Source of the DNA: Spiroplasma syrphidicola EA-1 | Lineage (GTDB): Bacteria; Bacillota_I; Bacilli_A; Mycoplasmatales; Mycoplasmataceae | Assembly: GCF_000400955.1 (NCBI RefSeq) | Contig: NC_021284.1 | Coordinates: forward strand, 496,001-560,000 | Length of the DNA stretch: 64,000 nt | Direction: 5' to 3' | Translations under genes and position numbers: made by a program | The notes under the pieces: generated by a model | Databases searched by the model: none | What the model was told of the DNA's origin: nothing | What the model saw: only the letters and a program-made list of their open reading frames with translations | In this document: piece after piece, positions 4,105 through 22,255 of the stretch | Layout: the number at the start of each line of letters is the position of its first letter | Numbering within the stretch: the stretch's first letter is position 1

Positions 4105-4340
4105 CTCGGCTGTCCGAGAAAGAGGGCAAAAAGAAAAGTGCGCACACTTTTGCGCCCACGAAAAAGGCTGTAAACACAGTCTTTTTTATACTTTAGCGCG
4201 CACTTTTATGCCCTCTTGTAGAGTGAGTGCGCCCACGATTTTTCCGATATCTATCGGAAAAATTGGGGTTGTGCGCGCACTCCTTATCCTGCTTCTGAAA
4301 TTACTCCGTAATTTTCGAAGAAATGGGGTATAATGTTAAG
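4105..4340. other. Repeat-dense intergenic region, candidate oriT or replication origin
   Basis: No gene is visible. In order: hairpin CTCGG/CCGAG (4105-4118); a long interrupted inverted repeat with arms AAGAGGGCA + AAAAGTGCGC (4120-4143) and GCGCACTTTT + TGCCCTCTT (4198-4217); an 11-bp direct repeat TGCGCCCACGA (4151-4161 and 4228-4238); 8-bp arms GAGTGCGC/GCGCACTC (4225-4232, 4275-4282) enclosing a perfect 11-bp palindrome TTTTTCCGATA/TATCGGAAAAA (4239-4262); and a small inverted repeat near 4297-4316. The region is far richer in G+C than its surroundings. The architecture resembles origins of transfer or plasmid origins; function is inferred. Confidence 0.55.
4161..4187 (+). terminator. 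Intrinsic terminator
   Basis: AAAAAGGCTGT pairs with ACAGTCTTTTT (one G-T pair) around an AAAC loop, ending in a T-run. It terminates the 3290 gene and lies inside the inverted-repeat-rich region. Confidence 0.75.
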
Positions 4341-4410
4341 GTAGATGACCAAATGACACATGCTACGATTTTTATCGTATGCATGTGTTTTTTATTTGGT
4401 AAAGAACAAA
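4329..4410 (+). promoter_or_regulatory. ICE leader element, copy 1 (promoter plus nested hairpin)
   Basis: TATAAT at 4329-4334 is followed after 6 nt by a 70-nt element (4341-4410) repeated almost exactly three more times in the ICE. It folds as an outer stem ACCAAAT/ATTTGGT (4348-4354, 4394-4400), a middle stem ACACATGC/GCATGTGT (4356-4363, 4381-4388) and a top stem TACGAT/ATCGTA (4364-4369, 4374-4379) with a TTTT loop. A T-run follows the middle stem, so the inner hairpin looks like an intrinsic terminator at the start of the transcript. This copy precedes the 4432 gene and, further on, the traE operon. Confidence 0.8.
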
Positions 4411-4431
4411 TTAGAATGAAAGGTTTAATAA

Positions 4432-4992
4432 ATGTCATTAAGTGAAAAAAATAAACTAGATAAATTAAGTACATTGTGATCAAAGATAGATTCTGAATAT
4501 AAATATTCTAGAAATGAAAGTATTCTGAGAAATGGATGAATATTGGGCCAATTTATTGGTAATCCGGAGTTAGATTTAATTTGTAGTAATAGTAATATCC
4601 TAAATTTAGTTAATTTAGCTTATTCATTTAAAGAAATGAATGATGAAGAATTTAACGCGAAATTTAATGATTTGCCAGAAAATGTTGAAAAATACCAAGT
4701 TGTTAATTTTAATGAAAAATTCCCAATGAAAGATGGAAGTGATTTAGCCTTGAATCGTGAAGAAGCCATTAAAGAAATTAAAGAGTTGATAAAAAATGAT
4801 TCGGAATATACTTTTACAGCAACTGGTTATTGCCCGGTAGAAAATGAAGATGAAGATTTAACAGGAGATGGCCATTATTGAACGCAATGAGATGATTTAA
4901 CAAGTGAAGAATTAATTGATAAATTAAGCGATCATAATTATCAAATTGAAGTCTGAATATGTAATGAATTATCTAACGAGATGGAATTATAA
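4432..4992 (+). CDS. Hypothetical acidic protein, 186 aa
   Basis: No family recognised. The ATG follows GAAAGG 9 nt upstream and lies 21 nt after leader element copy 1, so it is the first gene of that unit. The product is soluble and strongly acidic (runs such as ENEDEDLTGDG and DDLTSEEL), without signal peptide or membrane segment. Acidic small proteins in conjugative elements are sometimes anti-restriction DNA mimics, but no such family signature is visible here. Confidence 0.75.
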
Positions 4993-5002
4993 AAATAAAA
5001 AA

Positions 5003-5085
5003 AGAACCAATGGTTCTAAAATCATACCTGAACTATTCAGGTACTTACGTCTCATCTTATAAGTAAAAACTTACAACACTAAGAT
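5003..5085 (+). promoter_or_regulatory. Three successive hairpins before the traE operon
   Basis: Hairpin 1: AGAACCA/TGGTTCT (5003-5017). Hairpin 2: perfect 8-bp TACCTGAA/TTCAGGTA with a 3-nt loop (5025-5043). Hairpin 3: nested ATCTTA/TAAGAT (5054-5059, 5080-5085) enclosing TAAGT/ACTTA around AAAA (5060-5073). Only the first could be a weak terminator and it lacks a T-run. The set sits in the 144-nt gap before the 5137 gene and could be a structured leader, a processing site or a protein-binding site. Confidence 0.5.
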
Positions 5086-5136
5086 AAATTAATATTAACA
5101 TACTATAAACAAAAAACAATAGAAATGAGGAAAAAT

Positions 5137-5865
5137 ATGAAAATACGCACATGACAAGTATATGAAGTTCAGAATCCAGGAGATTTAGATCAATACGGAA
5201 ATCAAAAGAAACGTGCATTTATAGCATTAGGACAGGGGCATAATCCATATCAAACATATGGAATATTGACTACTACTTCTTATAAGAATAATGAAATAAA
5301 AAATCAATTAGTTATAAAAGATTTACTAAATAATAATAAAGAAAATAAATTATTGCCAAATAACTTAGTTAGAATATTTAATTCAAATATTATTAAAGAA
5401 TTTTATCATATTGAAAATAAAGAGAAATCATTAGTTGATATATCAAAGGAAAATAAAAAGAAAATTATTGAGCATTTTAATTTGAAAGAGTATCGAACTG
5501 TAAAAGAGTTTCAATTTCATTCGTTAGATAAAGATGAGACAATTGACTATTCTTATCAGGTAAACACTTTGTTAAAAGGAATTAATAAAAATCTTGATCA
5601 AGCATATGATGCAACTGGGAATTTAATTGATGAATTAGCAGATAAACATGTGTCAGGAGATAAAGGAGTTGTTTTAGATATTGAAACTTATGCCCAGTTA
5701 AACCAGGGTTATGAAAATGCTCAATATTTACAAAATGAATTATCTAAAGCTCATCAAAAAATTAATGTTCTTGAAAAAGAAAATGAACAATTAAAATATG
5801 AAAATGATAATTTAAAAAATAGTCAAATTAAGGCAAGTGAAGAAGATTATGAAATGGAGATGTAA
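5137..5865 (+). CDS. Hypothetical protein with PemK/MazF-like N-terminus and C-terminal coiled coil, 242 aa
   Basis: The ATG follows AATGAGG at good spacing. Residues 1-115 have the beta-strand spacing of PemK/MazF proteins (QVYEV, then KKRAFIALG, then YGILTTTSY, then VRIFNSNIIKEF), but the identification is tentative. Residues 175-230 are a strong heptad coiled-coil. The end (EEDYEMEM) and its junction to the next gene are almost the same as at 13,620-13,645. The stop is 2 nt before the VirB4 gene, so the two are co-translated. A toxin-derived domain joined to a coiled coil could serve as a conjugation regulator or accessory. Confidence 0.75.
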
Positions 5866-5867
5866 AA

Positions 5868-8543
5868 ATGAATAATAGTATCATCGCTCCTCAATTAAAA
5901 AAGCAGAAGTTAAAGTTAAAAGATAACTTTACGTTAGTTGATTTAGCCTTTACGCTTATTTATGCAGTTATTGCTTTTTTGATTGGTTATAATTTAGTAT
6001 TTTTATCAATGCTAATTCGAATAATTATTGGTATAACGGTGTTTATGTTTTTAATGCTGACGTTAATTCATTCAGAACGCTATAATGCGAAAATCTATAT
6101 GATTGCAATTCGAGGATTCATTTTTTGGAGTAAAAAGAAAAAGTTTAGTATAGATTCTAAAACTAATAACACATCTTTACTAATGCCTTATCGAAAATTG
6201 CATGATGAAGGTTATATTGAAACAAGTATTTTAGAGGGTGGTAAAAAATGATATATTAGTGCCTTAGAAGTTAAAGGTATTAATATCACAACTTTAGATC
6301 CCGAAGAACAAATCCTAAAATTAGAACAATTAGCTAGTATGTTTCGTTTGACCGATTGTCAATTAAGTTTAGTAAAAATGGAGCGTCCTCATAATCTGAA
6401 TAAGAATTTGAAATTTCTACAAACAGTCATGAATAAATTAGAAGAATTAAAGAAAACTAAAAAATTATCTAAACATGGTTATGATAGTAGAACAAAACAA
6501 TTGGAAGGTTATCAAAACTTATATTCTGACCAGGAAGGAATTTTAGGATATTCACAAACGGCAAAGACTTTTATTTTATTTATTTATGAAACAGAAGTTT
6601 CAAAACTATTTAAAGCTGTTAAATTAATTAAAAGTAAAATTAATGAAATAAATTTGCGAGCTGAAGAAATTACTAAATATGAATTAGTAAATAACATTAA
6701 ACTTATTTTTAATCCATATGACGAACCGTTTTCTAATGAAAAAATAGATGAATATAGTAACAAACTAAATGAACTATTAGCAATTGATAATATTACATTT
6801 ACCCAAAATAATTTTAAAATTAATGATGTTTATTATTCGGTAAAAGGAGTTAGAGATTATCCAACTTATCCTCAGAATGGTTGAGCAGCTAAATTATGTG
6901 CAACAGATAGTACTGTTATTATTAACATTGCTAAAACTAATTTAGATGCAGTTAAAGAACAATTACACAGGGCAATGGTAAATGCACGTACTAACTTTTT
7001 TTCAATTAAAAGAACTGTTAATCGAACAGAAAAAGAAAATGAATATCAGTCGTTTGAAAATCTAGTAAATTTAATTTCTTCTGGTGAAGAAACAATTAAA
7101 AGAGTTAATGTCTTATTTTTGAACTATGGTGTTGATAAGAAAACTTTAAAACAAGCAGAAGAAAGTGTGGAATTGCTTTTAAAACAACAAAATATGAAAA
7201 TGGATTATCTGCTTTTCAAGCAAATAGATGGATATAGTGGGATCTTACCAAAACCAACTGACCCAACAGCATATACAAATTCATTTGAAATGCCGTGTGT
7301 AACTATTGGTAATTCATTTCCATTTCTAAATAATGCTTTAGAAGATGAAAAAGGTTTATTTGTTGGTTATAACTCGACAGGTGATGTTGTATTTTCTGAT
7401 CAGTTTAAGCGAGGGGGAGACTATCAAAATTCGAATGCCTTTTTTATTGGAACAACTGGGGGAGGTAAAACAACAACTGTTAGCAAATTTCTAAATTACC
7501 ATATTGCCTTAGGTCGCAAAGTAATTATTATTGATCCCAAACGAGAATTTGGTCAGTTATGTAACTATCATGATGGCAATTGAATTGATGCAGGAAGTGG
7601 GACAAAAGGTAATTTTAATCCTTTGCAAATTCAAGTTCCAGTTGATGAAAATATTAGTATTGAAATGGTTATTGGAGACCATTTACAAATTCTAGAAACA
7701 TTCTTTCGTTTTACAGAACCTTCATTTTATGAAGAGGAAATAAAATTCTTATTGCAAAGAATATTAGATTTTTATTTATCTTTAAAAGTTAATAAATCAA
7801 ATAAAATAGTAAAAATGAAAAATAGTGATTGGCCAACTTTTAGTGATTTAGTTATCTTTTTAAAAGCACAAATTCCGAATTTGGGTGAAGAAATCCTTTT
7901 AAATAAAATTATTAAAACAATTGAATATGATTTTACCGGGTATGGGAAATATGCGGCTTTATGAAATAAGCAGTCATCCGTTAGTTTAGCTAATAACTTA
8001 TTAAATGTGCTAGACATTCAAACCTTATATTCAAAATCACAATTTAATGTTTTAAAAGCTCAAATGTTCTTAATGTTAAATTTCATTCGAAATGAAATTA
8101 ATAATAATCGTTTTAATGATAATAATGAAATCATTCTTGCTGTTGATGAGGCCCACGTTGTTATTGATCGCGATAATCCACAAGCTTTAAAATTCTTATT
8201 TGAAACAGTCAAAATGATTAGAGGATTTAATGGGGGTGTTATGTTAGTCACCCAAAACTTATCAGACTTTAAAACAACCCCGGAATTAGAACGTGAAGCA
8301 ACAGCAATTTTGAACAATGCTCAATATGTTGGAATTTTAAAACTAAAACAAAAAGATTTACAGGATGTGAGCGATTTGTACCAGGCAAGTGGTGGTTTAT
8401 CATCGGCTGAAATTAACTTTTGTGCAACTGCGCAAAGGGGAGATATGTTATTTATGGCAACAGATTATAATCGCCATTGCCTACATGTTGAATTAACTGA
8501 AATTGAACAAGAAGCAATAGGTATTAAACTAACAGAAAACTAA
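5868..8543 (+). CDS. traE: VirB4/TraE-type conjugation ATPase with fused N-terminal membrane domain, 891 aa
   Basis: Energises assembly and substrate movement of the type IV secretion channel. The ATG follows GGAGATG and overlaps no other gene. Residues 20-80 contain two hydrophobic segments resembling a VirB3/PrgI-like module fused to the ATPase, as in many Gram-positive systems. Walker A GTTGGGKT is at residues 528-535 and Walker B LAVDEAH near 757-763. A C-terminal NAQYVGILKLKQKD segment matches the VirB4 fold. The frame is intact when TGA is read as Trp at several positions. The best recognised gene of the element. Confidence 0.95.
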
Positions 8544-8564
8544 AACTTAAAAGTGAGGTAAAAA

Positions 8565-8741
8565 ATGGGAAAACAGAGTAAAAAAACAACAAAATCAAAT
8601 AATTTTAGAATCCAACTAAAATTATCCCCGGAAACATATTTTGAAGTTAAAAAATATACTGATGAAGAACATTCGTTGGGGGATGTAATTCGATATTTTA
8701 TTACTGAGGGATTAAAACAAAATGAAAAAAGTGATGATTAA
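8565..8741 (+). CDS. Small ribbon-helix-helix-like protein, 58 aa
   Basis: A short basic N-terminus precedes FRIQLKLSPETYFEVKKY and a helix pair ending YFITEGLKQ, the pattern of a MetJ/Arc-type ribbon-helix-helix DNA-binding protein. The ATG follows GTGAGG 21 nt after the traE stop. The last 20 nt overlap the next gene. Such proteins in conjugative elements act as relaxosome accessories or repressors. The fold is inferred from pattern alone. Confidence 0.68.
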   Translation: MGKQSKKTTKSNNFRIQLKLSPETYFEVKKYTDEEHSLGDVIRYFITEGLKQNEKSDD

Positions 8742-9012
8742 TGATTTGGCCAAACAGTTAGCATCAAAAGCTAATCTAACTCAAAAGCGATCAAAAGAGT
8801 TAATAAATTTAACTTTTGAATTAATTAGTGATGAATTAACTAATGATAATGAGGTTTTAATATCTAACTTTGGTAAATTTAAAACAATAAATGTAAATCG
8901 TGAAGAAACTGTTTTAAAACAAGAACAATATAAAATAAGGGCCAGTAAAACAGTTAGTTTTTCATCAGCCAAAAAGTTTAATCAGTATTTCAGGAGAGTA
9001 AATCATGAGTAA
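8722..9012 (+). CDS. HU/IHF-like DNA-binding protein, 96 aa
   Basis: Residues 1-90 match the HU/IHF family: N-terminal helices (INDLAKQLASKANLTQKRSKELINLTFELISDEL cannot be confused easily in spacing), then VLISNFGKFKTINVNRE and an arm-like region ending SFSSAKKF. The characteristic IxxFGxF core is present as ISNFGKF. Such proteins bend DNA and can assist relaxosome assembly or act as nucleoid proteins. It overlaps the preceding and following genes, so the three are translationally coupled. It differs from a chromosomal HU in its unusual arm sequence. Confidence 0.8.
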   Translation: MKKVMINDLAKQLASKANLTQKRSKELINLTFELISDELTNDNEVLISNFGKFKTINVNREETVLKQEQYKIRASKTVSFSSAKKFNQYFRRVNHE

Positions 9013-9478
9013 AAAGATAGTAGAAGTTAGATTTAAATTAAGACATTTAAATCAAATTCAAGAACATAAATTATTTGTTGAAAGTCATAAAGATAAATAC
9101 AATTCAATTAATGAATTACTAGCTAATACATATATTTCTTCTATTCAAAAAAATAACTTAGAAGATAAAACTGACATGATAGCAGATATAGTTCGTGAAG
9201 AAATAAACAAATCAACAAGTCTTTTATTAAAAGCCACAAAAAATTATACTGATGATTTAGTTTCTTATTTGTTATCGCAACAAATAATTACTGATCAGCG
9301 AATTAAGGTAATGCAAAATATCTTGGCCAAACAACTTGGGATTGATTTAAATACTTTAAATAACCCTGATGAAGAAATTTTACAAGAACTAGATTATATA
9401 AAAGAGTTTTCACAGCAAATTAAAACAGATTATGAAGTTTGAAAAGAAAACCGCCGGAAAGAAAGAGGTAAAAAATAA
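9005..9478 (+). CDS. Hypothetical helical protein, 157 aa
   Basis: No family recognised. It starts inside the last codons of the HU-like gene, preceded by CAGGAGAG. The product is nearly all helical, with charged stretches and a basic C-terminus (WKENRRKERGKK) reached by reading TGA as Trp. It is the last gene of the traE unit and is followed by about 245 nt of featureless A+T-rich DNA. A helical basic protein next to two DNA-binding proteins may be a relaxosome or mating-pair accessory. Confidence 0.72.
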
Positions 9479-9723: not shown

Positions 9724-10182
9724 ATGAAAAATATTTTATTAAGTTTAATAAGTTCTACTTTTATAGGAGTTAGTGTGTCACCAGTAATAACTAATTATAA
9801 AATAATTGAAAAATCAGTTAGGGAAGATAAAGATATTACTAATATTGATACTTGAAATGTAAGTGGTGTACATAATATTTTTAAATTAGAGATGGGTAAA
9901 ATTCTAGATTTGTTTAGATCAAACCAGAATGATCAAAAAAATTGAATAATTTGGTATTTACAAAAATTGGCTCCTGATGCTGTAATTAGGGATATTAATA
10001 TTATAGAAGCATTTCATGCCGTAAAAATATCAGAAAAAAATTATATTATTGATGCAGCCCATCCTTATAAAACTGATGAAGTCCCGGAAGTTGGATATTT
10101 TTATTTAGAAGTAAATGGAAACAATATTATAGGAAATGATGTTATTGGCATTTCATATATTTTAGTTGAACAAACAAAATAA
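9724..10182 (+). CDS. Exported protein, 152 aa
   Basis: A signal peptide (MKNILLSLISSTFIGVSVS) without a lipobox cysteine precedes a 130-residue domain of unknown type; TGA is Trp at several sites. The start is chosen because of the signal peptide and the AGAAGGAAAAC ribosome site. A G-rich stretch with GGGTCAGGGTGGG precedes it and resembles the leader of the exported protein at 16,784. It is probably surface-exposed ICE cargo. No family recognised. Confidence 0.78.
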
Positions 10183-10233
10183 ATATTTTATGTAGATAGT
10201 ATTTAAAATTTTATAAATTAAATAATTTTATAG

Positions 10234-10315
10234 TATAATATTTGTGTAGATGACCAAATGACACATGCTACGATTTTTATCGTATGCATGTGTTTTTTAT
10301 TTGGTAAAGGACAAA
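10234..10315 (+). promoter_or_regulatory. ICE leader element, copy 2
   Basis: TATAAT at 10,234-10,239, then the 70-nt element at 10,246-10,315 with all three stems of copy 1 conserved. The upstream context TATAGTATAATATTTGT is shared with copies 3 and 4. It precedes the 10,368 gene by 52 nt. Confidence 0.8.
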
Positions 10316-10367
10316 CTAACCTAAATATTAATTTTTTATTTACAGAAAGTATAGAGGAAATTAATAT

Positions 10368-10862
10368 ATGACAGATCAATTACAAAATACAGAACAAAAT
10401 TTAAAACAAAACTATGATTCTTTTTTAATTAAAAAAGAAAGAATTTTAAAAGTTATGGACTCAAAGGAAATTACTTTAGCAGACGGATCAGTTAAAGTAA
10501 TGAAACCAAAATTCCTGGTAAGATTATCGGAAAAAGAAACATTCTTTTACCCACAAAATTCAGCCTTTCTTAAACAATTGGCAAATGATGGGGAGCATTT
10601 AATTAAAGAAGCAGATTCATTAGAAACTGCTGATTATGTGCAGCTATCTTTCCCAAAAGAAAATAAAGAATGAGATAAAATTAAAATCTCGACTTTTGAA
10701 GGAAATGATGAAGCAGGGAAACCTATTTATGGTGATAGAGATTGTGCATTAACAGGTTTAAAAACGCATTTTAAAGAAGAAACAGCTCAAATTTGAGAAG
10801 AAATGCGCCAGGCAAAACAAGAATTTATTAAAAACAAAGACGTCAGTAACAGCATCGAATAA
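10368..10862 (+). CDS. Hypothetical protein with an acidic tail in a second frame, 164 aa
   Basis: The first gene after leader copy 2. The 164-residue product is soluble and mixed-charge, with a possible OB-like beta pattern (PKFLVRLSEKETFFY), and ends NKDVSNSIE. If one A is skipped in the AAAAA run at about 10,832-10,838, the frame continues to 10,914 and ends NNETDVISFDGDDAILWD, an acidic, aromatic tail like that of single-strand DNA-binding proteins. Either a natural frameshift, programmed slippage or a sequencing error could explain this. A role in handling transferred single strands is inferred only from the tail. Confidence 0.7.
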
Positions 10863-10981: not shown

Positions 10982-11533
10982 ATGAAAAAAATACTAAGTT
11001 TTTTAGCAATAATAGTTTTAACAACCCCAATTGTCAATACAACTATTGCATGTGAAGGAACAGGGTGAGGAGTTAATCCAAATCCTCCAAAACCACCCCA
11101 ACCAGAACCAGAAAAAGATATTGAATATTATCAAAAATTATATGATTCAAAACAGAAAGATTATTTAAAAACCAAAGGAGAAATTGATGAATTAAAATCC
11201 CCTGAAACAATTAAAGAACTTTGTGGGGGAATTATAATTTGTGCAGATTTACAAGAACTAATTCATTTAACGACAATTGAATTATATCGATATAACGTAA
11301 TTATGGATGATTGTTTATATCAAATTCTTTATTTAGAAAATAATAAAAATATTACCAATCCGGAAGCAAAAGTAAAAGCTGCTGGAATTTTGACAGACGA
11401 ATTAACTACTTTAACCACAATTAAACTAATTATGAAATTATATCCTGATAATTATAAAGAAAAAGATCTTAATGAAGTAAATGAGCAGATTAGCAAAGTT
11501 CAACAATTAATTAGTGAATTGAGTAAAAAGTAA
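10982..11533 (+). CDS. Lipoprotein, 183 aa
   Basis: The signal peptide MKKILSFLAIIVLTTPIVN ends in a lipobox TTIAC with Cys24 as the lipidation site. A Pro-rich linker (NPNPPKPPQPEPEK) follows, then a helical domain with several Cys. The ribosome site AAGGATAGAAG precedes the ATG. It is probably anchored in the outer leaflet and exposed. No family recognised beyond the lipoprotein class. It is in the unit behind leader copy 2. Confidence 0.85.
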
Positions 11534-11534
11534 T

Positions 11535-11930
11535 ATGCTTAAATTATTTAGATTTGATGAGCCAATAAATAATAAAATTAAGCTATTAGAAACAACTAAA
11601 ATTGACTGAAATGAAATAGCTAGTGAAAACTTTACTGATTTAAAGACAGTTTTAAATGATTTTGCTAATGAATTAATAGGATATACGGAAGTAAATAATA
11701 AAGTTAGTTATTTAGTATTTACAGATAATTATGATCAAAATTATTTAGAAAATGAAGATATAACTTTTAGAATTTTATCTAATGAAGCTTTAATTAATGA
11801 GCGATACGAAGTTTCAGATATTTTGTCAGGGAATTTACTTCTAAAAGAATTAGGAATTTCTAATGAAGAAGTATTGTTAAATAATGAGCCTTATCATTTT
11901 AAAAATGATAATAGTTATGAATTAGAATAA
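11535..11930 (+). CDS. Hypothetical acidic protein, 131 aa
   Basis: No family recognised. The start lies 1 nt after the stop of the lipoprotein gene, so translation is coupled. It is soluble and acidic (Glu/Asp/Asn-rich), contains a TGA-encoded Trp at residue 25, and ends NDNSYELE. It closes the transcription unit behind leader copy 2. Confidence 0.7.
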
Positions 11931-12093: not shown

Positions 12094-12630
12094 ATGAATG
12101 CAATTACAGTAGCAAGCTTCTTAATAAAAGAGAATAAAAATAGATTTAATAGTAAAACACCTTTAGAATTTAATGGTGTAAATGTAACTGAAGGAAATTT
12201 AATTTTAAATAAACATTTGCATTTAGCACAAATACTTTTTCTCGGAAAATATGGAATGGAATTATTTGAAGATAATTTATTTGCATATATTAATGGAGCA
12301 GTAGTTAATACAGTTCGCCTTAATTATTTATCATTAATTGATGATAATAGTCTTATTTTTAATCAAGATAATTTTGAACGATTAAATGAAACCCAAGAAA
12401 AATTTTTGAAAAATATACTTATTTTTTTATCAGGAGCTTCTTTTGAAGAATTATCAGATTTATCACATGTAGACCCAGCATGGATCGAGGCTAGAAAAAA
12501 TTATATAAAAGGTGATCATTCTTCACAAATTATGGACATTAAAAAATATAAAGATGAATATAAAATAAATTTTAAAGATGCATTAGAAGTTATTGAAAAT
12601 ATAGAAAATTATATTGATAGTGAAAAATAA
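12094..12630 (+). CDS. Probable Panacea-domain (DUF4065) antitoxin, 178 aa
   Basis: Residues 1-140 fit the Panacea/SocA-like domain: an N-terminal helix (AITVASFLIKEN), KHLHLAQILFLGKYG near residue 40, an ELFEDNLFAYINGAVVNTVR segment equivalent to the family's GPV region, and LSDLSHVDPAWIEAR near residue 125. Panacea proteins neutralise diverse toxins encoded next to them. The ATG follows GGGGTGATGAA. The 3' end overlaps the next gene, as expected for a toxin-antitoxin pair. It probably stabilises the ICE in the host. Family assignment is by pattern. Confidence 0.72.
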   Translation: MNAITVASFLIKENKNRFNSKTPLEFNGVNVTEGNLILNKHLHLAQILFLGKYGMELFEDNLFAYINGAVVNTVRLNYLSLIDDNSLIFNQDNFERLNETQEKFLKNILIFLSGASFEELSDLSHVDPAWIEARKNYIKGDHSSQIMDIKKYKDEYKINFKDALEVIENIENYIDSEK

Positions 12631-13060
12631 AATTCTTAGATGCCATATTCCTTATGATAATGGAGAAAATCCACCAACTTCTAAAGATGATAATAAACCT
12701 AGAAGATTATTAATTTATGAAGATACTTCTAAATTTTTAGTTTGTTTTAATATTACTAAATTAACTCAAAATAATATGTACAAATTAATTCAGTATAAAA
12801 ATATGTTAAAAATTTCTAAAATAAAAAACCCGGCTTTATTAAAATGTGATTCTATTCTTAAATTAAATAAAATATTTGTTATTGAAAAGTTTGATGGAAT
12901 TGAAAGATCTTTGTTTTCAAATGTGGAATTGGATATTTCTGATTTAATAAGAATTGAGGAAAGAGTAAAAGAAATATATAAATCAGATTTAGACCAAGAA
13001 ATAGTTAAAATATCAAAGAAAGTTTTTCAATTTTTAAATAATGATTTGTATGAAGTATAG
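12614..13060 (+). CDS. Putative toxin partner of the Panacea antitoxin, 148 aa
   Basis: Overlaps the antitoxin gene by 17 nt. No ATG is available: the start is TTG at 12,614 or GTG at 12,620, giving (M)KNKILRCHIPYDNG. The beta-rich first 80 residues (RRLLIYEDTSKFLVCFNITKL and CDSILKLNKIFVIEK) resemble the PemK/MazF-type strand order, but the match is weak. The stop at 13,058-13,060 directly abuts the TATAAT of leader copy 3. The toxic function is inferred from position and overlap. Confidence 0.62.
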   Translation: MIVKNKILRCHIPYDNGENPPTSKDDNKPRRLLIYEDTSKFLVCFNITKLTQNNMYKLIQYKNMLKISKIKNPALLKCDSILKLNKIFVIEKFDGIERSLFSNVELDISDLIRIEERVKEIYKSDLDQEIVKISKKVFQFLNNDLYEV

Positions 13061-13143
13061 TATAATATTTGTGTAGATGACCAAATGACACATGCTACGA
13101 TTTTTATCGTATGCATGTGTTTTTTTATTTGGTAAAGAACAAA
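13061..13143 (+). promoter_or_regulatory. ICE leader element, copy 3
   Basis: TATAAT at 13,061-13,066 and the element at 13,073-13,143 (71 nt, one extra T in the T-run). All stems are conserved. It lies 18 nt before the 13,162 start and controls the unit that ends with the TrbL-like gene. Confidence 0.8.
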
Positions 13144-13161: not shown

Positions 13162-13422
13162 ATGTCAGGATTATGAACGATTAAATCATCGCAACCTTTT
13201 TCACAGCAAGAAATTAAAAATAACTATATTGAATATGATTATAATTTAAAATCACGATATCAAATTAATGAAAATTTTAAAGCTAAACAAGTTTTAAATA
13301 ATAATTTTAAGATTAATAAATCATATTGGGTTATGAACCGTTTTAATTTCTTAGTGCACAAAGGTAAAAAATATAAAAATCAAAAGAAACATTATCTGAA
13401 AAGAGATAAATGAAATAGATAG
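13162..13422 (+). CDS. Hypothetical basic protein, 86 aa
   Basis: The first gene after leader copy 3; the ATG follows AAGAGGTAG. Small, very basic, Asn/Lys/Tyr-rich, with two TGA-encoded Trp. No family, signal peptide or membrane segment recognised. It is followed 11 nt later by the next gene. Confidence 0.62.
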
Positions 13423-13642: not shown

Positions 13643-14275
13643 ATGAGTAAAAGACAAACAATATTTGAATTGCATGAGGTTATTGGATTTGATGATAATG
13701 GTAATTATGATGAAAATTATGATGAATTACTTTATACATTTACTAGTTATGAGGATGCTCAGAATGAATTAAATTATCAAGTTGAGCATGGATATGCGCC
13801 AAGTGAATTAGAAATTCAAGAAGAAGAAATTGATTATGACATTAATCAAAATGAAAACTATTTAGAAACACTTGAACATTTAAAAAGAGTTGAACAAAAC
13901 TATCAAAAAGAAGCGTTTTATGATGAAATTTATAGTTTGCGACATGCTTTTGTCAATAATGAAATTGGTATTGTTGGGATTAGTGCTAGATTAATGAAAA
14001 TAGGTTTTAGTGCAGAACAAGTATTAGATTGAGAAACAAAAGCTAAAACTTTAAATACAAATAATGAAATTCTTATTGAACAAAACGAAAATGAAGAATT
14101 AAGAGTTCCATTTGATAATTATCTAAAAAGCTTAAAACCTGAGTATGGATTACAATTGTTTCAAAATGAAGGTGCATTTAAAGAATACGAATCTGAATTT
14201 AATGAATATTTAAATGTCAAAGAAATTCAAAATAAAGAATTTGAGGCAAAAAATAATGAAACGGAGTGAGAATAA
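13643..14275 (+). CDS. Hypothetical acidic protein, 210 aa
   Basis: The ATG is 2 nt after the preceding stop, with GGAGAT as ribosome site. The product is strongly acidic (EIQEEEIDYDINQNENY and similar runs), helical, and reaches its stop through two TGA-encoded Trp. No family recognised. The composition recalls ArdA-like DNA mimics in conjugative elements, but no signature is seen. Confidence 0.72.
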
Positions 14276-14276
14276 T

Positions 14277-14591
14277 ATGGGATTTTTATTAAATATTTTA
14301 GCAGATGTTCCGGATTTTAGTGGCACAACAAAACTAGTTGTTACTTTATTAAATGCCATTTTAACCCCAATTTCAATTATTGCCGGGGCAATTTGTGTTT
14401 TATATATTGTTAAACATGCTTTAAAAATTAAGAAGTTTGCTGATGATCCTGAACAACGTAATATTCAAATTTTTGCAATTGTTTGGTGTGTTGTTGGATT
14501 AGCTTTATGTATTTTCGCACCAATTTTTGTAAATACTATCTTGCCGGAATTAATGAATGGGGCTGGAGGATATCAACCTCCAAATAGTTAA
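14277..14591 (+). CDS. Two-helix membrane protein, VirB2/TrbC-like, 104 aa
   Basis: Two long hydrophobic segments (about residues 18-45 and 62-88) flank a short charged loop (KIKKFADDPEQRN), the layout of VirB2/TrbC pilins and their Gram-positive equivalents. It lies immediately before the TrbL/VirB6-like gene (3-nt gap), as in other type IV secretion clusters. The start follows CGGAGTGAG. A conjugation-channel component is likely; pilin identity is inferred. Confidence 0.65.
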   Translation: MGFLLNILADVPDFSGTTKLVVTLLNAILTPISIIAGAICVLYIVKHALKIKKFADDPEQRNIQIFAIVWCVVGLALCIFAPIFVNTILPELMNGAGGYQPPNS

Positions 14592-14594
14592 TAT

Positions 14595-16196
14595 ATGGTA
14601 GATGTTATTAACAATTTAAACCTGTTTGGGTTTATTGATTGAATCCAAGAAGGGATTTTAAAGGTTGTCTGAAAAATTTTTATTGAGGGACCTTTAGGAA
14701 TCGTTTCGGCATTTGATCAAGTGTTATTATTTTTATCAAGTGGGATAGTATTTGATTTATTGTTTAATTCAAAAACCCAATTTTCATGAGAAAATGTTCC
14801 AACAGCATTTTGACAATTTTCAATTGTCGCAGTTGGTTTACTTGTTATTATCTTTATTTCGCAGTTTTTAACATTGCAGTTTAGAGAAGCAGATAAGATG
14901 AAACCAAAACTAATTAGTTGTTTGAGGTTTACCGGATTAGCTGGTGTATTTGTTTTCTTTATTCCATTGGGTTTTTTCTTTGTAAATGCAATTATTACCT
15001 GGTTTGTTTCAATTTTAAATACTATTTTTGGAACAAGTGGAGTTAATTTAGCAGATGCCTTATATTGAGCAGGTAATATTAATGGAATGCAAGGGCATGT
15101 TGATGGTTATGGCCCTCCTTCAAACATAAATGATTGATCAGTAATTGTAGAAATATTTGCGGTGTGATTTGTATTAATTGCAGTAGCTATGCTAGGTTTA
15201 GCCTTAACCCAAAAAGTATTTGAATTATTGTTCTTATTTATAGTTTCCCCATTAGTAATGGCCGGAATGGTGCAAGATGAAGGGAAACGCGCCTTAACTT
15301 GAAAAGATATGGTTTTGTCGAAGATGTTAGCAGCATCAGCAACATTAGTGGCATATTATATTTATATGTTGTATACAAGTATTGTTGCAAAACCAAGTTT
15401 TGGCCCAAGTAATTTCCCAAGTTACGCAAAAATGTTACTGACTTTATTATGTTTATTAGGTGGGGCCTTAGGAACCTGAGGAATTACAGTCATTATTGCT
15501 AACTTTATTGGTGAAGGAGTCGGGGCAATGGAAGGAATGAACTCAATTCGAACAACAATGGCCGCCGGAATGTTTGCAGCTGGCTCGGCTAAAATGGTTG
15601 GGAGAGCCTTAGGATTTGCCAAATCAAAAAAACAATTGAAATATGAACGAAAAATGGGAATGGGTGGAGCAAATCCGCTATCAAGTCCATTTGGGGAATC
15701 ATTAAATTCAATGTTAGGACCTGATTCAACCGGGGCAAGTAGATCAGGTATACCGCCAATTAGTGCACCAACTAGAATGGCTAGTCGCAGTGGTATTATA
15801 GGCGGGTTAGCCACTATTGGTGGATTAGCTGCAATTGGGGCTGGAAAAAGTATATGAGCCGTAAAAAATGGCTGAACTAGTGCCAAAGATACTAGTGGAA
15901 TTGTTCCAACTAAAAATGGAATTGATGTTAAGCGAAAAGGTAAAGTCGGAACATATGCTCGTAAATTTGGTAAAGCAATTGGGGCTGGTTTAGCATCACC
16001 ATTTGTAGGAATCGGAAGAACAGTTAAAAAAGGTGTTCGTGTTGGTTGAGATTCAGCCGGAGAAGTATTTGGTGGAGAAGCCAGAAAAGGTTATAAACGT
16101 GCTGAGGAAATTCCACAAGAAATAATGGCTGCTAAAAAGAAACGAATTAAAGATAAACTAGATAAAAAATTAGAAAAATCTAAAAATAAAAACTAG
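14595..16196 (+). CDS. TrbL/VirB6-like conjugal transfer membrane protein, 533 aa
   Basis: Forms part of the inner-membrane channel of the type IV secretion system. Five or more hydrophobic segments occupy residues 35-320 (for example FTGLAGVFVFFIPLGFFFV and VIAVAMLGLALTQKVFELLFLF), followed by a Gly/Ala/Ser-rich region (residues 325-430) and a basic C-terminal tail (KKKRIKDKLDKKLEKSKNKN). This arrangement matches TrbL/VirB6. The start is 3 nt after the preceding stop without a strong ribosome site. The stop lies in a terminator. A fragment of its tail is duplicated at 17,767. Confidence 0.82.
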
Positions 16197-16224
16197 AATT
16201 TTATTATAAATTCTAGTTTTTTAT
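16191..16224 (+). terminator. Intrinsic terminator after the TrbL-like gene
   Basis: AACTAGAATT pairs with AATTCTAGTT (16,209-16,218), followed by T-run. The arm includes the stop codon. The same hairpin is repeated at 17,868-17,902. Confidence 0.85.
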
Positions 16225-16285
16225 ATTATAATAAAAGCAAATATCAACTGTATTAACCATTATTAATTTACAAAGGAGATTTAAT

Positions 16286-16672
16286 ATGGGTATTAAAAGT
16301 TTACTTGGAGGCGAAACAAACTACAAGGCAATTAATAAGCATTATCAAAAAGAATATAAAAAACTAGCAGAAAAACAAAAATTTATTAATGATTCTGACA
16401 AAACCTATTTTAGTTTGCTTAATAAAATAGGGCCTGAAAATTTTGTTAAGAGAGTGCTTGAAGCAGTAGGACCAAAATATTATGAAATGGAACAACGAGA
16501 TATAAAAGATTTTTTAGAACGTTACCCTGATGCTATTCCGCCTGAATATAATCCTTATTATGTTAAACCAGAAGTTGTACAAGAAAATAGTAAAGATCTA
16601 GAAGCATTAAAAATTGAAAAAGAAATCCTTGAAATGAAACTAAAGTTAAAAGAGCTAGAAAATAGTAAATAA
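16286..16672 (+). CDS. Hypothetical protein, 128 aa (paralogue of 17,964)
   Basis: The ribosome site AAAGGAGATTT precedes the ATG. Conserved with its paralogue are the first 25 residues (MGIKSLLGGETNYKAI), a RYPDAIPPEYNPYYVKPE motif, and a coiled-coil tail EKEILEMKLKLKELE. No family recognised. It is part of a duplicated module with the terminator before it. Soluble, without signal peptide. Confidence 0.75.
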   Translation: MGIKSLLGGETNYKAINKHYQKEYKKLAEKQKFINDSDKTYFSLLNKIGPENFVKRVLEAVGPKYYEMEQRDIKDFLERYPDAIPPEYNPYYVKPEVVQENSKDLEALKIEKEILEMKLKLKELENSK

Positions 16673-17536: not shown

Positions 17537-17581
17537 TAATGCTTTATTAGAAATTTAAAGTGAATATATTTATCAAAACTT

Positions 17582-17612
17582 AAATCCTATTTAATAAATA
17601 GGATTTTTTATT
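17582..17612 (+). terminator. Intrinsic terminator
   Basis: AAATCCTATTT pairs with AATAGGATTT, followed by TTTTA. The hairpin and about 25 nt downstream recur at 27,539, after the large surface protein. Confidence 0.85.
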
Positions 17613-17766
17613 TTATATTAAGACAAAAATAACAAGGAAGAAATTTTTAAATCATATTCTTAAAAAATAGGTTTTGTAAATTACTAAGATTGATAATTAG
17701 GTCTTTTTTACACAAGCAAAACAATTTTCGCTATTTAATTTCAAGTAATTCCTGGTGTCATAATAA

Positions 17767-17869
17767 GAGGTATAAACGTGCTGAAGAAATACCAAAAGAG
17801 ATCAAGAAAGACAAACTAAATAGACAAAGAATTAAAGAAGAAAAAAAGTCTTTGAAATCAAAAAAATAA
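17767..17869 (+). pseudogene. Duplicated C-terminal fragment of the TrbL-like gene
   Basis: Reads GYKRAEEIPKEIKKDKLN and ends KKSLKSKK at a TAA, matching the tail of the 14,595 gene (GYKRAEEIPQEIMAAKKK). It has no start and is followed by the same terminator. It shows that an ancestral segment running from the end of the TrbL-like gene into the next gene was duplicated. The rest of 17,537-17,963 holds the two terminators and no gene. Confidence 0.8.
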
Positions 17870-17902
17870 ACTAGAATTTATAATAAAATTCTAGTTTTTT
17901 AT
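17868..17902 (+). terminator. Duplicated intrinsic terminator
   Basis: AAACTAGAATTT pairs with AAATTCTAGTTT with a T-run. Paralogous to the terminator at 16,191. Confidence 0.8.
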
Positions 17903-17963
17903 ATTATAATAAAGACAAATATCAACTGTATTAACCATTATTAATTTATAAAGGAGATTTAAT

Positions 17964-18350
17964 ATGGGTATTAAAAGTTTACTTGGAGGCGAAACAAACT
18001 ACAAGGCAATTGATAAACATTATCAAAAAGAGTATAAAAAATTAGCTGAAAAACAAAAGTTTAATAATGAAATGGATAAAGATTACTTGGAATGAATAGA
18101 ATTGGTAGGACCAGAAAATTTTATTAACAAATTATTTGAAATTAGTAAAGATCAAAAAACAACAGAAACCTTAATTAAAGAATTTTTAGAACGTCATCCT
18201 GATGCTATTCCACCTGAATACAATCCTTATTATGTTAAACCAGAAATTAAGCAAGAAAATAGTAGTGATCTAGAAGCATTAAAAATTGAAAAAGAAATCC
18301 TAGAAATGAAACTAAAGTTAAAAGAACTAGAAAATAGTAAGGAAAAATAG
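17964..18350 (+). CDS. Hypothetical protein, 128 aa (paralogue of 16,286)
   Basis: Nearly identical to the 16,286 product over the first 35 and last 45 residues, with a diverged middle. AAAGGAGATTT ribosome site is conserved. Shares the HPDAIPPEYNPYYVKPE motif and coiled-coil tail. It stays intact, so both copies may be used. Followed 3 nt later by the next gene. Confidence 0.75.
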
Positions 18351-18353
18351 CAT

Positions 18354-18800
18354 ATGAGTAACGAAAATATTAATAAAATTAACAACTGAGCATTAGAAAC
18401 ATTGGAAAAATATTTTATTAAAAATAATGATAATATTATGAATAATGATAGTATTGTTATTTGACAGTCGTTTGAAAAAAATGACAAATATAATTATTTA
18501 TCATCGATTATTTATAAAAAAGTAGAAAAAGACAGAATAAAATATTTTTTACACCATCAAAATTATTTTTTGCAAGAAATAATACCATCAAATCCAGAGT
18601 TTCAACCATATAATCCATCAAGAAGTATTAGTGTAGAAATTTTAAATTCTCAATTAAATGACGAAAATATTGATAATATAATTAAAGAAGAATGTTATAG
18701 AACTAATAACTTTACTGCATTTAACCCTGAGCTATCAATGGAAATTATGTATTTTATTATTAAAAATGATTTAAATAAATTTAGAAATAAAAATGATTAA
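18354..18800 (+). CDS. Hypothetical protein, 148 aa
   Basis: No family recognised. The start is 3 nt after the preceding stop. Soluble, Asn-rich, with two TGA-encoded Trp. It contains FQPYNPSRSISVEIL and ends KFRNKND. It probably belongs with the 17,964 gene in one transcript. Confidence 0.68.
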
Positions 18801-18833
18801 GAGTAGTATAAAAAATTGAAAGGCAAATAAATA

Positions 18834-19463
18834 ATGTATAAATTAATTAATACAATACTAAATAAATATTTAAAATATACTACTTTGTTTATATTATCTT
18901 TTTGTTTTTCTATAATATTAATATTTTTTGGTGCATGTATCTATTGATGAATAGATTTATGAAAAAAATATTATTCAATTTTTATTATACTTGGAAGCTC
19001 ATTAATGTTTTTTAATCTTTTAATATTATGTTCAAACTTTTTTTATAAATTATATTTGGAAAATAAGAAAACAAAAAAAATCATTGATAAATTTGAGAAC
19101 CTCAAATCAGAAGTTATAGATTGATTTGTTCAAAATTTTTACAATACGAAAAGTGAAAAATTTGATGGTGAATGCTCTTGGAATCCTACTAATTTTAATG
19201 AATATTATGTAAATGATTATATTGATAAATTAGAAAAAATTGAGGGAATTATTTTTGATCATGGTAATCCTAATTATATTGGCAGTGAAGCTAGGTTATC
19301 ATATGAAACAACAAAAAAATTAAATAAATTAGTAATAAAAAATAAAAAATTTATAAAATTAATAAATAGTTATAGTACTTTATCTTTATTAGAAAATTTA
19401 GAAGAAAATAAAAAAGTAAATAATATTTTTAATGATGAAGAGGAAAAAATTATATGAGATTAA
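18834..19463 (+). CDS. Hypothetical membrane protein, 209 aa
   Basis: Two hydrophobic segments (about residues 17-40 and 50-75) are followed by a charged soluble domain of about 130 residues. The start is preceded by GAAAGGC. TGA is read as Trp at five places. Layout is similar to the 2185 and 3290 genes (short membrane anchor and cytosolic domain), but no sequence family is recognised. Confidence 0.7.
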
Positions 19464-19593
19464 AACTTATAAAAAACTTACTACAGTTTTTGCAAACTAT
19501 TTAGATAAATTTGATAAATTCAATAAAGAATAAATAATATTTGTAATTAGTTTAAAAAAAATTAATTTTTATAAACAAAGAAAGGAAACAAAT

Positions 19594-19887
19594 ATGGCAG
19601 ATAAAAGAGGAAAATGGTCCAAAGATGATAAAAATCTTATTTGAAAAGATTATATTGAAAATAAAATATTTGATATTTATGAAGAATATAAATTAAAAGA
19701 AATTGATTTAACACAAGAATCCTTATGCCCAGAATGTGGGGAAATAATTTTAAAAGCTCAATATCAAGGTTATCAACCTGATAAAGATTATTCTTGAGAT
19801 GTAGATCATATTAATGGCAATTATAGAGACAATAGATTAGAAAATTTGCAGCCAATGCATCCTTGATGCAATAAGTCAAAAGGATAA
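19594..19887 (+). CDS. HNH endonuclease-like protein, 97 aa
   Basis: The HNH core is visible: CPECGE near residue 45, WDVDHINGNYRDNRLENLQPMHPWCNKSKG at the end in outline (DH, N, H and the second Cys pair in order). The ribosome site GAAAGGAAAC precedes the ATG. HNH nucleases nick or cut DNA with a metal ion; in mobile elements they serve in transfer, packaging or defence. At 97 residues it is a minimal domain with a short N-terminal extension. Substrate unknown. Confidence 0.8.
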
Positions 19888-19991
19888 ATATTTGTATTAA
19901 TAAATATTACATATCTTATACATGTATTAAACATAGAAAACGAAATTTTATAAATATTTAAATTAAAAAGTAGAATTGGAGAAATAATAAA

Positions 19992-20594
19992 ATGTCTTAT
20001 ATAGAAGAATTATTATCTATGACATATGATGAATGTGTAGATAGTCTTTTAAAAAAATACGGTTCAGTACCAAAAGATTATTTTTTAGATGCAGACTGTA
20101 TAAAAAAAACTCCAGGAATAACTAGAGGTAAAGAAGGATTATATATTCATCATATTGATGAAGATAAAGCAATTTTACTTTCTACACCAGATCATGCGCG
20201 ATTAAACTCATTTGATTATCAAAAAGCTGATAGATTAGTATATTGTAATTTATTAGAGCATTTAGTATTACATATTAAAATAGTTGAATATCCTAATGTA
20301 GAGCAAAATTATGGTCAAATATGTGGCATTGGCGGAATTACTAATTTTATTGTTCCAGAATTAAATGATATTTATAGTGGGATTGTTTATAAACAAGAAT
20401 GAAAGAAAAAAGTAATTGAAGTAGTATTACCGTATAAAGCAGATTATCTAAAATGCATAAAAAAAATAGTTGATATGAATATACATGTACCTTTATTATC
20501 TTCATTTATCTTTAATGAAAAGGCTGGAATTTGAAGTAAAGATAAAAATGAGGAACTTTTTAGGGAACTTAAAAAAATAGGAGTAAAATACTAA
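19992..20594 (+). CDS. Putative HNH-like protein, 200 aa
   Basis: The central EGLYIHHIDEDKAILL and LVYCNLLEHLVLHIKI motifs resemble a widespread Firmicutes plasmid and phage protein with an HNH-like HH...N...H pattern. N-terminal region has KYGSVPKDYF. TGA-encoded Trp lies at residues 137 and about 180. Start follows TTGGAGAAATAA. Second HNH-like gene in a row, suggesting a local nuclease module. Biochemical activity not certain. Confidence 0.7.
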
Positions 20595-20623
20595 TTTATT
20601 CACAATTTAATTAGATATTAATT

Positions 20624-20914
20624 ATGGCAACAATAAATAAAGTTCATATCAAACATAATTGATATGCAAGAATGATTGAATTTCTTAATAAAGCAGAATA
20701 TAATTCAGCAACTAAATCTTGGCAAGCTTATCGAAACGACTTATTGCATTGAAATAATTGAGGGGATAAAAAACTAACGTACAAACCACCCGCCCTTGTG
20801 GAATATAAAAGAGGGCCAAGTGGTAAAGGTTATTATGAAATTAAAGCAGATCTGTTAAAAGAAGCTATTCAATTTTGAAGAGATAACTACGAAATAAAAT
20901 GAATGGGGGAATAA
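20624..20914 (+). CDS. Hypothetical protein, 96 aa
   Basis: Trp-rich (seven of them, five by TGA) and basic, with YKRGPSGKGYYEIKADLL near the C-terminus. No strong ribosome site precedes the ATG, so the start is less sure. Overlaps the next gene by 16 nt. No family recognised. Confidence 0.58.
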
Positions 20915-21090
20915 AGAAAACAAATACAAAACTAATTATTTTAATAATTTATACATTTATAATAGGCTTGATTGTATTTGGAATATTACAGTTGATAAGT
21001 TCAATTGGATCAATGATTAGTATATCAGCATTAGGAGTTATATTATTAATTTTAGGATGTTGGATATTAAAGAATATTAATAAAAAATAG
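20899..21090 (+). CDS. Small two-helix membrane protein, 63 aa
   Basis: Two hydrophobic segments (about residues 11-33 and 38-57) with a short loop and a basic end NINKK. It overlaps the previous gene, whose last codons supply no clear ribosome site. Function unknown; small hydrophobic proteins in such elements can be holin-like, toxin-like or surface-exclusion factors. Confidence 0.55.
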   Translation: MNGGIKKTNTKLIILIIYTFIIGLIVFGILQLISSIGSMISISALGVILLILGCWILKNINKK

Positions 21091-21166
21091 CAAAATATTA
21101 AAAGAATTGTGTAATAATAAAAATAGTTATTAAATTAAAAAATATAATAGGAATTAGGTATTTTTA

Positions 21167-21511
21167 ATGGAATCTTGAGTTGTAATTTTAATAAGTTTAT
21201 TTGGTGGTGGTGGTGCTTTAACTGCCTTAATTTGATTAATAATTTGGTGTGTTAGAGGTTGACATAAAATAAAGCAAGAAAAAGAAAAAACAAAGCAAAA
21301 ACAAATCGAATATAATGCTAAAATTACTATTGAACAATTAAGAAATGATCGTGAAAAATTAAAACAACAAAGTATTACAGAGAGAATAAAGATGCAAGTT
21401 CAAGATGAAAAAGAAAAAAGAAGAGAAGAGATTATGAGAAAATATCCTAATCCTCATAAATATCATGAAACTTTAAGAAAAGGACATAAAGGTACAAAAA
21501 CTAAAAAATAA
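21167..21511 (+). CDS. Single-pass membrane protein with coiled-coil tail, 114 aa
   Basis: A hydrophobic N-terminus with a Gly run (LISLFGGGGALTALIWLIIW) spans the membrane at residues 5-28, followed by about 70 residues of highly charged helix (KIKQEKEKTKQKQ and EKEKRREEIMRKY). Trp codons are mostly TGA. Possible AGGAATTAGG ribosome site at a distance. Family unknown; topology resembles mating-pair or phage-shock-like anchors. Confidence 0.65.
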
Positions 21512-21604
21512 TTTAAATATTGAATTAATTTTTAAAATATTATAAAATATGTATGATATCATATAAGAAACAATTATAGGATTTAATCAAAAAAGGTGAT
21601 ACAG

Positions 21605-22156
21605 ATGTTAAAAGGAACAAATAAATTATTGATTAATGAAACTCTTAAAAATCAATTATTAGATAACTTAGCAAATTTAATATTAATTGAATCAGCAGAT
21701 AGATATTTAGATTTATTGCAAAAACAAAAAACTGACTCAGTACCAGAAATAGTTTTATCATTTTTAGATGGAATTTTTGATTTTTTAGATAAAGATTTTA
21801 ATATAATAAAAGAAAATACAAATAATTTAATAAAAATGAATAAAAAAGAGATTAGACATTTTAATTCTGCTATTGATAAATCAAAAGAATATAAAAATAT
21901 CTGTTTAATGCTAATGACAGTTTATAATATTTTTAAAAATGAAAATTTAAAAAATAATATTGTATATGAATTATATAAACATTATGAATTATTAGAAAAT
22001 AAAAATATATCTATAAAAAAACAATATAATAATGGACAACATCAGATTAAAGAAATAAGTATTATTAATGAAACTAATTTACAAGAAAATTTAAAAAAGG
22101 ATGTTATAAATTTATTTAAAAAACATGGTAAAAATGATATATATTATAATTATTAA
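21605..22156 (+). CDS. Hypothetical helical protein, 183 aa
   Basis: The ATG follows AAAAAGGTGATACAG; an upstream in-frame GTG at 21,596 overlaps that site and is less likely. Predominantly helical, with a hydrophobic stretch NICLMLMTVYNIF near residue 100 and many Asn/Lys. No family recognised. Ends just before leader copy 4. Confidence 0.7.
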   Translation: MLKGTNKLLINETLKNQLLDNLANLILIESADRYLDLLQKQKTDSVPEIVLSFLDGIFDFLDKDFNIIKENTNNLIKMNKKEIRHFNSAIDKSKEYKNICLMLMTVYNIFKNENLKNNIVYELYKHYELLENKNISIKKQYNNGQHQIKEISIINETNLQENLKKDVINLFKKHGKNDIYYNY

Positions 22157-22172
22157 TATTTCATTTTTATAG

Positions 22173-22255
22173 TATAATATTTGTGTAGATGACCAAATGA
22201 CACATGCTACGATTTTTATCGTATGCATGTGTTTTTTTATTTGGTAAAGGACAAA
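22173..22255 (+). promoter_or_regulatory. ICE leader element, copy 4
   Basis: TATAAT at 22,173-22,178 and the element at 22,185-22,255 (71 nt). All stems are conserved. It is 21 nt before the primase start and heads the primase-relaxase-surface protein unit. Confidence 0.8.

Follow-up and report, generated by a model that had tools for sequence, protein, structure and literature searches.

A repeated leader at the heads of ICE gene clusters

We analyzed a 64,000-nucleotide window of the genome of Spiroplasma syrphidicola EA-1 (NC_021284.1, positions 496,001 to 560,000; coordinates below are those of this window unless a genome position is indicated). The region is an integrative and conjugative element (ICE) of the mycoplasma type (Mbov_0395/0396/0397 module), with a TraE ATPase, a pilin and a coupling protein all present (Table 1), and several plasmid relatives of the TraE protein encoded at 5868-8543 are annotated as Mbov_0397 family ICE ATPases. 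An initial annotation had described four copies of a short structured element in this ICE, at 4341, 10246, 13073 and 22185, each 6 nt after a TATAAT box, and had proposed that they act as attenuators. Direct reading and a repeat finder confirmed all four, which we refer to as leaders 1 to 4. They lie on the plus strand, are near-identical and span 69 to 70 nt up to a closing ACAA, and in every case the TATAAT ends exactly 6 nt before GTAGATG, the opening of the conserved stretch.

As first described, all four window leaders contain three stem pairs, ACCAAAT/ATTTGGT, ACACATGC/GCATGTGT and TACGAT/ATCGTA, with a T-run behind the inner hairpin. The last two pairs make up a single 14-bp hairpin with one bulged T, which is followed by 6 to 7 T residues (last stem base counted). 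The next start codon lies 19 to 53 nt beyond the end of the element, against 18 to 52 nt in the initial annotation. The leader, 69 to 72 nt in all, folds as one nested structure. The RNA fold of 10246-10316 had an energy of -27.0 kcal/mol versus a mean of -10.5 (standard deviation, 2.4) for shuffled sequences (z = -6.9), and none of 200 shuffles folded as stably.

The leaders begin 12, 28 and 63 nt past the preceding stop codon at three of the four window sites, such that the hairpin should also end the upstream transcript there. For leader 1, the distance is 238 nt.

The stretch ahead of leader 1 (4103-4320) is G+C rich and contains several short inverted repeats. The end of the stretch (CTTATCCTGCTTCTGAAATTACTCCGTAATTTTCGAAGAAATGGGG) is found again, identical or similar, before leaders in two other genomes, G014 and G024. 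This stretch could be an origin of transfer or a regulatory site.

Distribution of the leader

In the whole genome (1,107,344 bases, one contig), we found seven full copies of the leader, with E values of 4.6e-31 to 7.5e-27, and one decayed copy. The full copies beyond the window lie at genome positions 495476 (plus strand), 563773 (minus strand) and 831266 (minus strand), and the decayed copy lies at 493671 (plus strand). All seven full copies head ICE genes or ICE remnants: the copy at 495476 precedes a 97-amino-acid (aa) gene and the coupling protein gene, the copy at 831266 precedes the same pair in broken form, and the copy at 563773 precedes a gene of the type found at 13162, then a pilin gene and then a partial gene of the 533-aa type.

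The decayed copy starts ~180 nt upstream of a restriction-type nuclease gene with GmrSD_N and HNH domains (L008:13671-15434, genome 493671-495434, for leader and gene together), and 41 nt separate the end of that gene from a full leader copy. The nuclease gene is possibly defence cargo of the ICE.

A covariance search found 29 hairpin-bearing copies in three genomes (7, 11 and 11), a count that excludes two partial BLAST matches in G024 (312044 and 896072) and the decayed copy at genome position 493671. Adding the decayed copy and the 10 short copies considered below, which come from four genomes, brings the total to 40. Among 60 genomes of the family, strong BLAST matches to the leader were confined to G000, G014 and G024, and TraE relatives were found in 25, so that most TraE-bearing genomes have no detectable leader. 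Across the order, covariance model R2 matched 7 of 320 genomes at E <= 0.02, in a search with strict filters by which weak matches can be lost; one further match (G137), which by reading sits in a stretch resembling a protein gene, was taken as chance. Weaker model matches within the genus had E values of 0.07 to 0.8, and on three plasmids of S. citri and S. poulsonii that carry a distant TraE, the matches were at chance level only (E of 0.22 to 2.8). Model R2 represents only the seven outer pairs, the automatically built model R1 aligned the variable stem poorly, and the alignments used (A1 and A2) comprise 18 and 15 chosen distinct sequences rather than all copies. We found no leader in plasmids or phages by blastn and none in viral contigs or species genomes by exact pattern; TraE scans of viral contigs and species genomes confirmed nothing and are weak nulls, reaching close relatives only.

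The initial annotation had predicted that the element would stand before conjugation genes only. This held for 27 of the 29 hairpin-bearing copies, which head ICE-type genes or sit inside a run of ICE genes, and failed for the copies at G024:59197 and G014:483621.

Exchange of hairpin stems with pairing retained

The apical stem of the leader hairpin occurs in G024 in three unrelated sequence classes, each of them fully or mostly paired. Among 14 distinct hairpins of the three classes, pairing each 5' arm with its own 3' arm gave a mean of -17.2 kcal/mol, whereas arms swapped between classes gave -8.9 kcal/mol (best swapped pair, -15.3 kcal/mol). The basal stem is nearly fixed, but one copy has covarying changes there (ACACGT/ACGTGT). 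The replacement of apical stems by unrelated sequences with pairing largely kept implies that structure is under selection, and this compensatory change in the hairpin indicates that the leader is a structured RNA. The earlier description of a structured leader is thus upheld: conservation begins at the predicted +1 position, and whole stems have been exchanged with their pairing kept.

Hairpin class is independent of the gene that follows, since the G024 copies before primase genes include all three classes. Two copies (868211 and 869585) combine a class 2 5' arm with a class 1-like 3' end, and the leader at L046:7845-7914 (G014:1007914) is chimeric, with an upstream part of the leader 1 type and a downstream part of the leader 3 type. 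These mixed forms suggest recombination between leader copies.

Terminator-like form and -10 box

We scanned the window on both strands for stable hairpins with a T-run immediately behind them and obtained 28 terminator-like signals, of which the four leaders ranked first, at -19.0 kcal/mol, in agreement with the terminator-like hairpin of the initial annotation. Ten of the other 24 signals are intergenic and lie no more than 75 nt behind a same-strand stop codon, implying that the hairpin/T-run form occurs at gene ends in this DNA. In all four window copies, a stable hairpin with a U-run directly behind it separates the promoter from the first start codon, as would be expected of an attenuator. 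A T-run of at least 6 (last stem base counted) is present in 27 of the 29 hairpin-bearing copies and in none of the 10 short copies. A TATAAT box precedes the element by exactly 6 nt in 27 of the 29 hairpin-bearing copies and in 4 of the 10 short copies, all four of them before a 98-aa gene. Searches for Rho in the genome gave below-cutoff matches only, which makes intrinsic termination the likely route.

Gene content of the window

The coordinates of the leaders and of the genes around them are collected in Table 1. The first part of the split lipoprotein-like gene (10982-11930) has relatives in other ICEs. A repeat finder identified 16182-16668 and 17860-18340 as two diverged copies of an ~480-bp sequence, 91 to 92% identical over two matched parts, and near the start of each copy is a hairpin of the type AAACTAGAATTT...AAATTCTAGTTT. 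A 234-nt unit is repeated six times in tandem at 56417-57886, within a 990-aa minus-strand reading frame (56327-59299).

Table 1. Leaders, hairpins and genes of the ICE region
Feature	Coordinates	Strand	Basis or remark
Coupling protein (T4SS-DNA_transf)	24..2126	+	In unit headed by leader copy at genome position 495476, just left of window
-10 box (TATAAT) of leader 1	4329..4334	+	Direct reading
Leader 1 (GTAGATGACCAAAT...GGTAAAGAACAA)	4341..4409	+	Direct reading, genome search
Terminator-like hairpin of leader 1	4355..4389	+	-19.0 kcal/mol, T-run after; hairpin/T-run search
First gene behind leader 1	4432..4992	+	Acidic, 186 aa, no Pfam match
246-aa protein	5125..5865	+	No family above cutoff
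TraE/VirB4-like ATPase	5868..8543	+	P-loop_TraG
HU-like DNA-binding protein	8722..9012	+	
-10 box (TATAAT) of leader 2	10234..10239	+	
Leader 2	10246..10314	+	Direct reading, genome search, fold versus shuffles
Terminator-like hairpin of leader 2	10260..10294	+	Hairpin/T-run search
First gene behind leader 2	10368..10862	+	164 aa, no Pfam match
Lipoprotein-like gene	10982..11930	+	By eye; overlapping frames 10982-11533 and 11514-11930; no Pfam match
-10 box (TATAAT) of leader 3	13061..13066	+	
Leader 3	13073..13142	+	Starts 12 nt past stop of gene 12614-13060
Terminator-like hairpin of leader 3	13087..13121	+	Hairpin/T-run search
First gene behind leader 3	13162..13422	+	Basic, 86 aa
Type IV secretion system pilin (PF18895)	14214..14591	+	
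533-aa protein	14595..16196	+	TrbL-like in initial annotation only; no Pfam match
-10 box (TATAAT) of leader 4	22173..22178	+	
Leader 4	22185..22254	+	Starts 28 nt past stop of gene 21596-22156
Terminator-like hairpin of leader 4	22199..22233	+	Hairpin/T-run search
DnaG-like primase	22277..23314	+	Behind leader 4
MobA/VirD2-like relaxase	23289..24626	+	
965-aa protein	24630..27527	+	Surface protein in initial annotation only; no Pfam match
Weaker terminator-like hairpin	27539..27561	+	-7.6 kcal/mol; 22 nt (to its middle) past last gene

Proposed function

In the hairpin-bearing clade, the leader is, we infer, most economically explained by promoter-proximal intrinsic termination. The full model, a common cassette at the main ICE operons that combines such termination with read-through altered by a factor, is one to which we give about even credence, leaning in its favor. 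Transcription would start at the G of GTAGATGACC, and the first ~50 nt would fold into a 14- to 16-bp hairpin ending in U6-8 (last stem base counted), which, as an intrinsic terminator, would release many polymerases with an RNA of ~50 to 54 nt. Only polymerases that read through would reach the 3' box (UUGGUAAAGRACAA), which could pair with the 5' box to complete the outer stem, and go on into the genes. Transcripts from an upstream operon would be stopped at the same hairpin, and the presence of the same cassette at each of these operons would hold ICE expression low together. The boxes flanking the hairpin may be where a factor of the element or the host makes contact and changes read-through, their fixed sequence being suggestive of a bound factor.

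A more far-reaching version, in which the leaders form an element-wide gate, is tentative and less likely than not. Here, two fixed boxes around exchangeable hairpins would be served by one factor, and a single antitermination event would open all these transfer operons, with each junction blocking its neighbor's read-through. A related ICE, described below, would have lost or never gained the terminator, keeping the factor's site alone.

Several observations weigh against gated termination at the leader. The initial annotation had named an antitermination factor or a competing fold as the means of passing the terminator, and neither was found. In five leader prefixes, no competing fold of comparable energy was detected: the best alternatives were -3.6 to -5.0 kcal/mol versus -17.3 to -25.4 kcal/mol for the terminator fold, and the small 5' folds differed between classes. 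With alternatives so much weaker, a switch made of RNA alone was rejected. As for a factor of a known family, the search for a NusG paralogue (RfaH/LoaP type) gave one NusG match only at E <= 0.1, at genome position 196290, outside the ICE. The BglG-type CAT_RBD domain had no match in the genome at E <= 0.1, in a search whose control was positive in 5 of 14 genomes, and no recognizable antitermination factor emerged from Pfam searches with 48 proteins encoded in and beside the ICE region, a set that includes some ordinary chromosomal ones, or from PHROGs searches with 10 proteins. In addition, a simpler consensus terminator scan passed over the leader hairpins, probably since its stem rule does not allow for the bulge, and the sites that it did report were at about shuffle level (5 sites versus 3.9 [standard deviation, 2.0] and 6 versus 3.3 [standard deviation, 2.1]). 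Among the 29 hairpin-bearing copies, the T-run is broken in two (G024:858364 and G014:386543) and the 3' box is lost in two (G014:484633 and G014:525732).

Further difficulties come from the related ICE, found in four genomes and with a TraE protein 71% identical, which carries the boxes GTAnATGrCCA...TGGyAAATkAC at the heads of two or three operons but lacks the terminator hairpin there. These short copies have 7 to 24 nt between the boxes; the two that were tested fold no better than shuffles (z of about -1), and TATAAT stands at 6 nt in all four copies before the 98-aa gene and in none of the other six. Two of the short-type positions match long-leader positions, namely, that before the 98-aa gene and the coupling protein gene and the one in front of the small gene that precedes the pilin gene. 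Because the boxes are kept in four further genomes without the hairpin, they represent the more widely shared core of the element, and they may bind something.

The outer stem formed by the boxes closes only after the U-run, too late to decide termination by itself. Covariation lends this stem modest support and was measured on an alignment fitted to it: 98.4% of 193 cells pair, versus 96.1% in shuffles and 24 to 66% when slid, with three double-sided changes. The ACCA/TGGT pairing is AU in 24, GC in 2 and GU in 2 of 28 cells. The start-to-start spacing of the boxes is 20, 21, 36 to 37 or 56 to 61 bp, without clear helical phasing.

At one short-type locus (L085), the reading frames on either side resemble ordinary chromosomal genes on inspection, and a stop codon interrupts the large surface gene, raising the possibility that the short-type ICE is a relic. 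Such a relic may have been inherited by the four species together. A likeness of the boxes to a K-turn or box C/D motif was dropped by eye, as the second strand has extra bases, and attC-like and insertion sequence-like readings of conserved boxes around a variable middle were dropped because most copies lie at a fixed distance from TATAAT.

Competing explanations

The leader might be operon punctuation without regulation, in which the upstream operon's terminator has the next promoter squeezed in front of it and the units are held apart and expressed at a fixed, low, constant level with no factor. Three of the window leaders lie behind the previous stop codon where a terminator would be expected, no antiterminator family appeared among the ICE-region proteins scanned, and one tested copy of EGeRS1, a repeated 5' region of pLS20 discussed below, blocks read-through from upstream promoters (PMC8708921). 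However, a plain insulator would avoid having TATAAT ahead of the terminator, as it is in 27 of the 29 hairpin-bearing copies; the flanking boxes are kept more widely than the hairpin; and leader 1 is far from the nearest stop codon. We regard punctuation alone as unlikely, although it deserves real weight. Slightly less probable is that the leader acts as a structure at the mRNA 5' end that serves stability, processing or protein binding (translation control), with the full nested stem protecting or marking ICE mRNAs and the T-run an A/T-rich by-product. The folding of the entire 69 to 72 nt as one nested structure and the persistence of the boxes in short copies without a terminator are consistent with this idea, and the GTAnATGAC direct repeat in both boxes, with the ACCA/TGGT pairing, could be interpreted as giving a symmetric internal loop. 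Yet the T-run lies directly behind the stem and is kept in 27 of the 29 copies, no other terminator-like signal found in the window is as stable as its leader hairpins, and the short copies tested fold weakly.

If instead a protein bound DNA at the boxes GTAGATGACCA (+1 to +11) and GGTAAATGAC and blocked or activated the promoter, the hairpin would be an independent terminator. Such an operator would account for boxes that are near direct repeats, that are the sole part kept in the short-type ICE and of which the first covers the predicted start site. We consider it improbable, given the lack of clear helical phasing in the box spacing, the retention of the ACCA/TGGT pairing in GC and GU variants (unnecessary for a direct-repeat operator) and a short-type site before a 72-aa gene that lacks TATAAT at the usual place. 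Last, long hairpins at several conjugative operon heads recall the single-stranded DNA promoters described in PMC8708921, and the leader might serve as a promoter or recognition hairpin of that (Frpo-like) kind when the ICE enters a recipient as single-stranded DNA. In those promoters, the paired repeats themselves form the promoter, whereas the -10 box lies outside and upstream of the fold in 27 of the 29 hairpin-bearing copies, which makes this explanation very improbable. Promoter-proximal termination, with read-through altered by a factor at the boxes, is the function that we favor.

Relation to known systems

Rfam gave no match at the gathering score in the window, and in a weak scan restricted to 10150-10400, the best match was the greA leader, at 21.7 bits versus a cutoff of 60. 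In lambda Q and HK022 put systems, a promoter is followed by a close terminator, and read-through depends on a factor or RNA loaded near the start. The leader resembles them in its promoter-proximal terminator-like hairpin; a Q-like protein or processive read-through would be a further, hypothetical likeness. The RAT sites of BglG/LicT antiterminators are leader hairpins of ~30 nt, and such a hairpin with internal loops resembles the short copies. In the leader, however, the box stem and the terminator are nested rather than mutually exclusive, and the genome has no CAT_RBD match.

The initial annotation had called such a multicopy attenuator unknown from the literature. We found no description of the leader itself in a limited search of the open-access literature, but there is precedent both for repeated structured leaders and for termination/antitermination control in conjugative elements (PMC8708921, PMC11658703 and PMC8955417). 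In the pLS20 family, EGeRS1 is a conserved inverted-repeat-rich 5' region before several operons, five of them on pLS20 (PMC8708921), and thus shares with the leader the form of a repeated structured 5' region heading several operons of one conjugative element. EGeRS1 is described there as ~400 to 600 bp or longer, with no constitutive promoter found and with establishment genes behind it, whereas the leader is ~70 nt long, has a -10 box and heads transfer operons; the two are set apart by description and not by direct alignment. Two leader queries against a plasmid collection gave no matches. In Tn916, intrinsic termination at T1 to T3 gates ICE genes and is overcome by the RNA-based canT mechanism (PMC11658703). 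The likeness lies in intrinsic termination as a gate to ICE genes; the difference is that canT is a single 452-bp sequence acting processively, whereas the leaders are many small cassettes, each with its own terminator-like hairpin. The conAn system of pLS20 likewise exerts termination/antitermination control over conjugation genes of a Gram-positive element (PMC8955417), but it is one bipartite protein-plus-RNA system at one operon start (no sequence search for a ConAn1-like protein was made here). None of EGeRS1, canT and conAn takes the form of a 70-nt promoter-terminator cassette with copies at several transfer operons.

Judging from our limited literature search, little has been written on how wall-less bacteria control conjugation, and a small, recognizable leader that marks operon heads offers a handle on when the ICE is switched on. 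The leader predicts a specific short RNA from each site. Taken together, these results suggest that termination gating, which Tn916 and pLS20 use in other forms, may also operate in Spiroplasma-type ICEs, in a multicopy and modular form.

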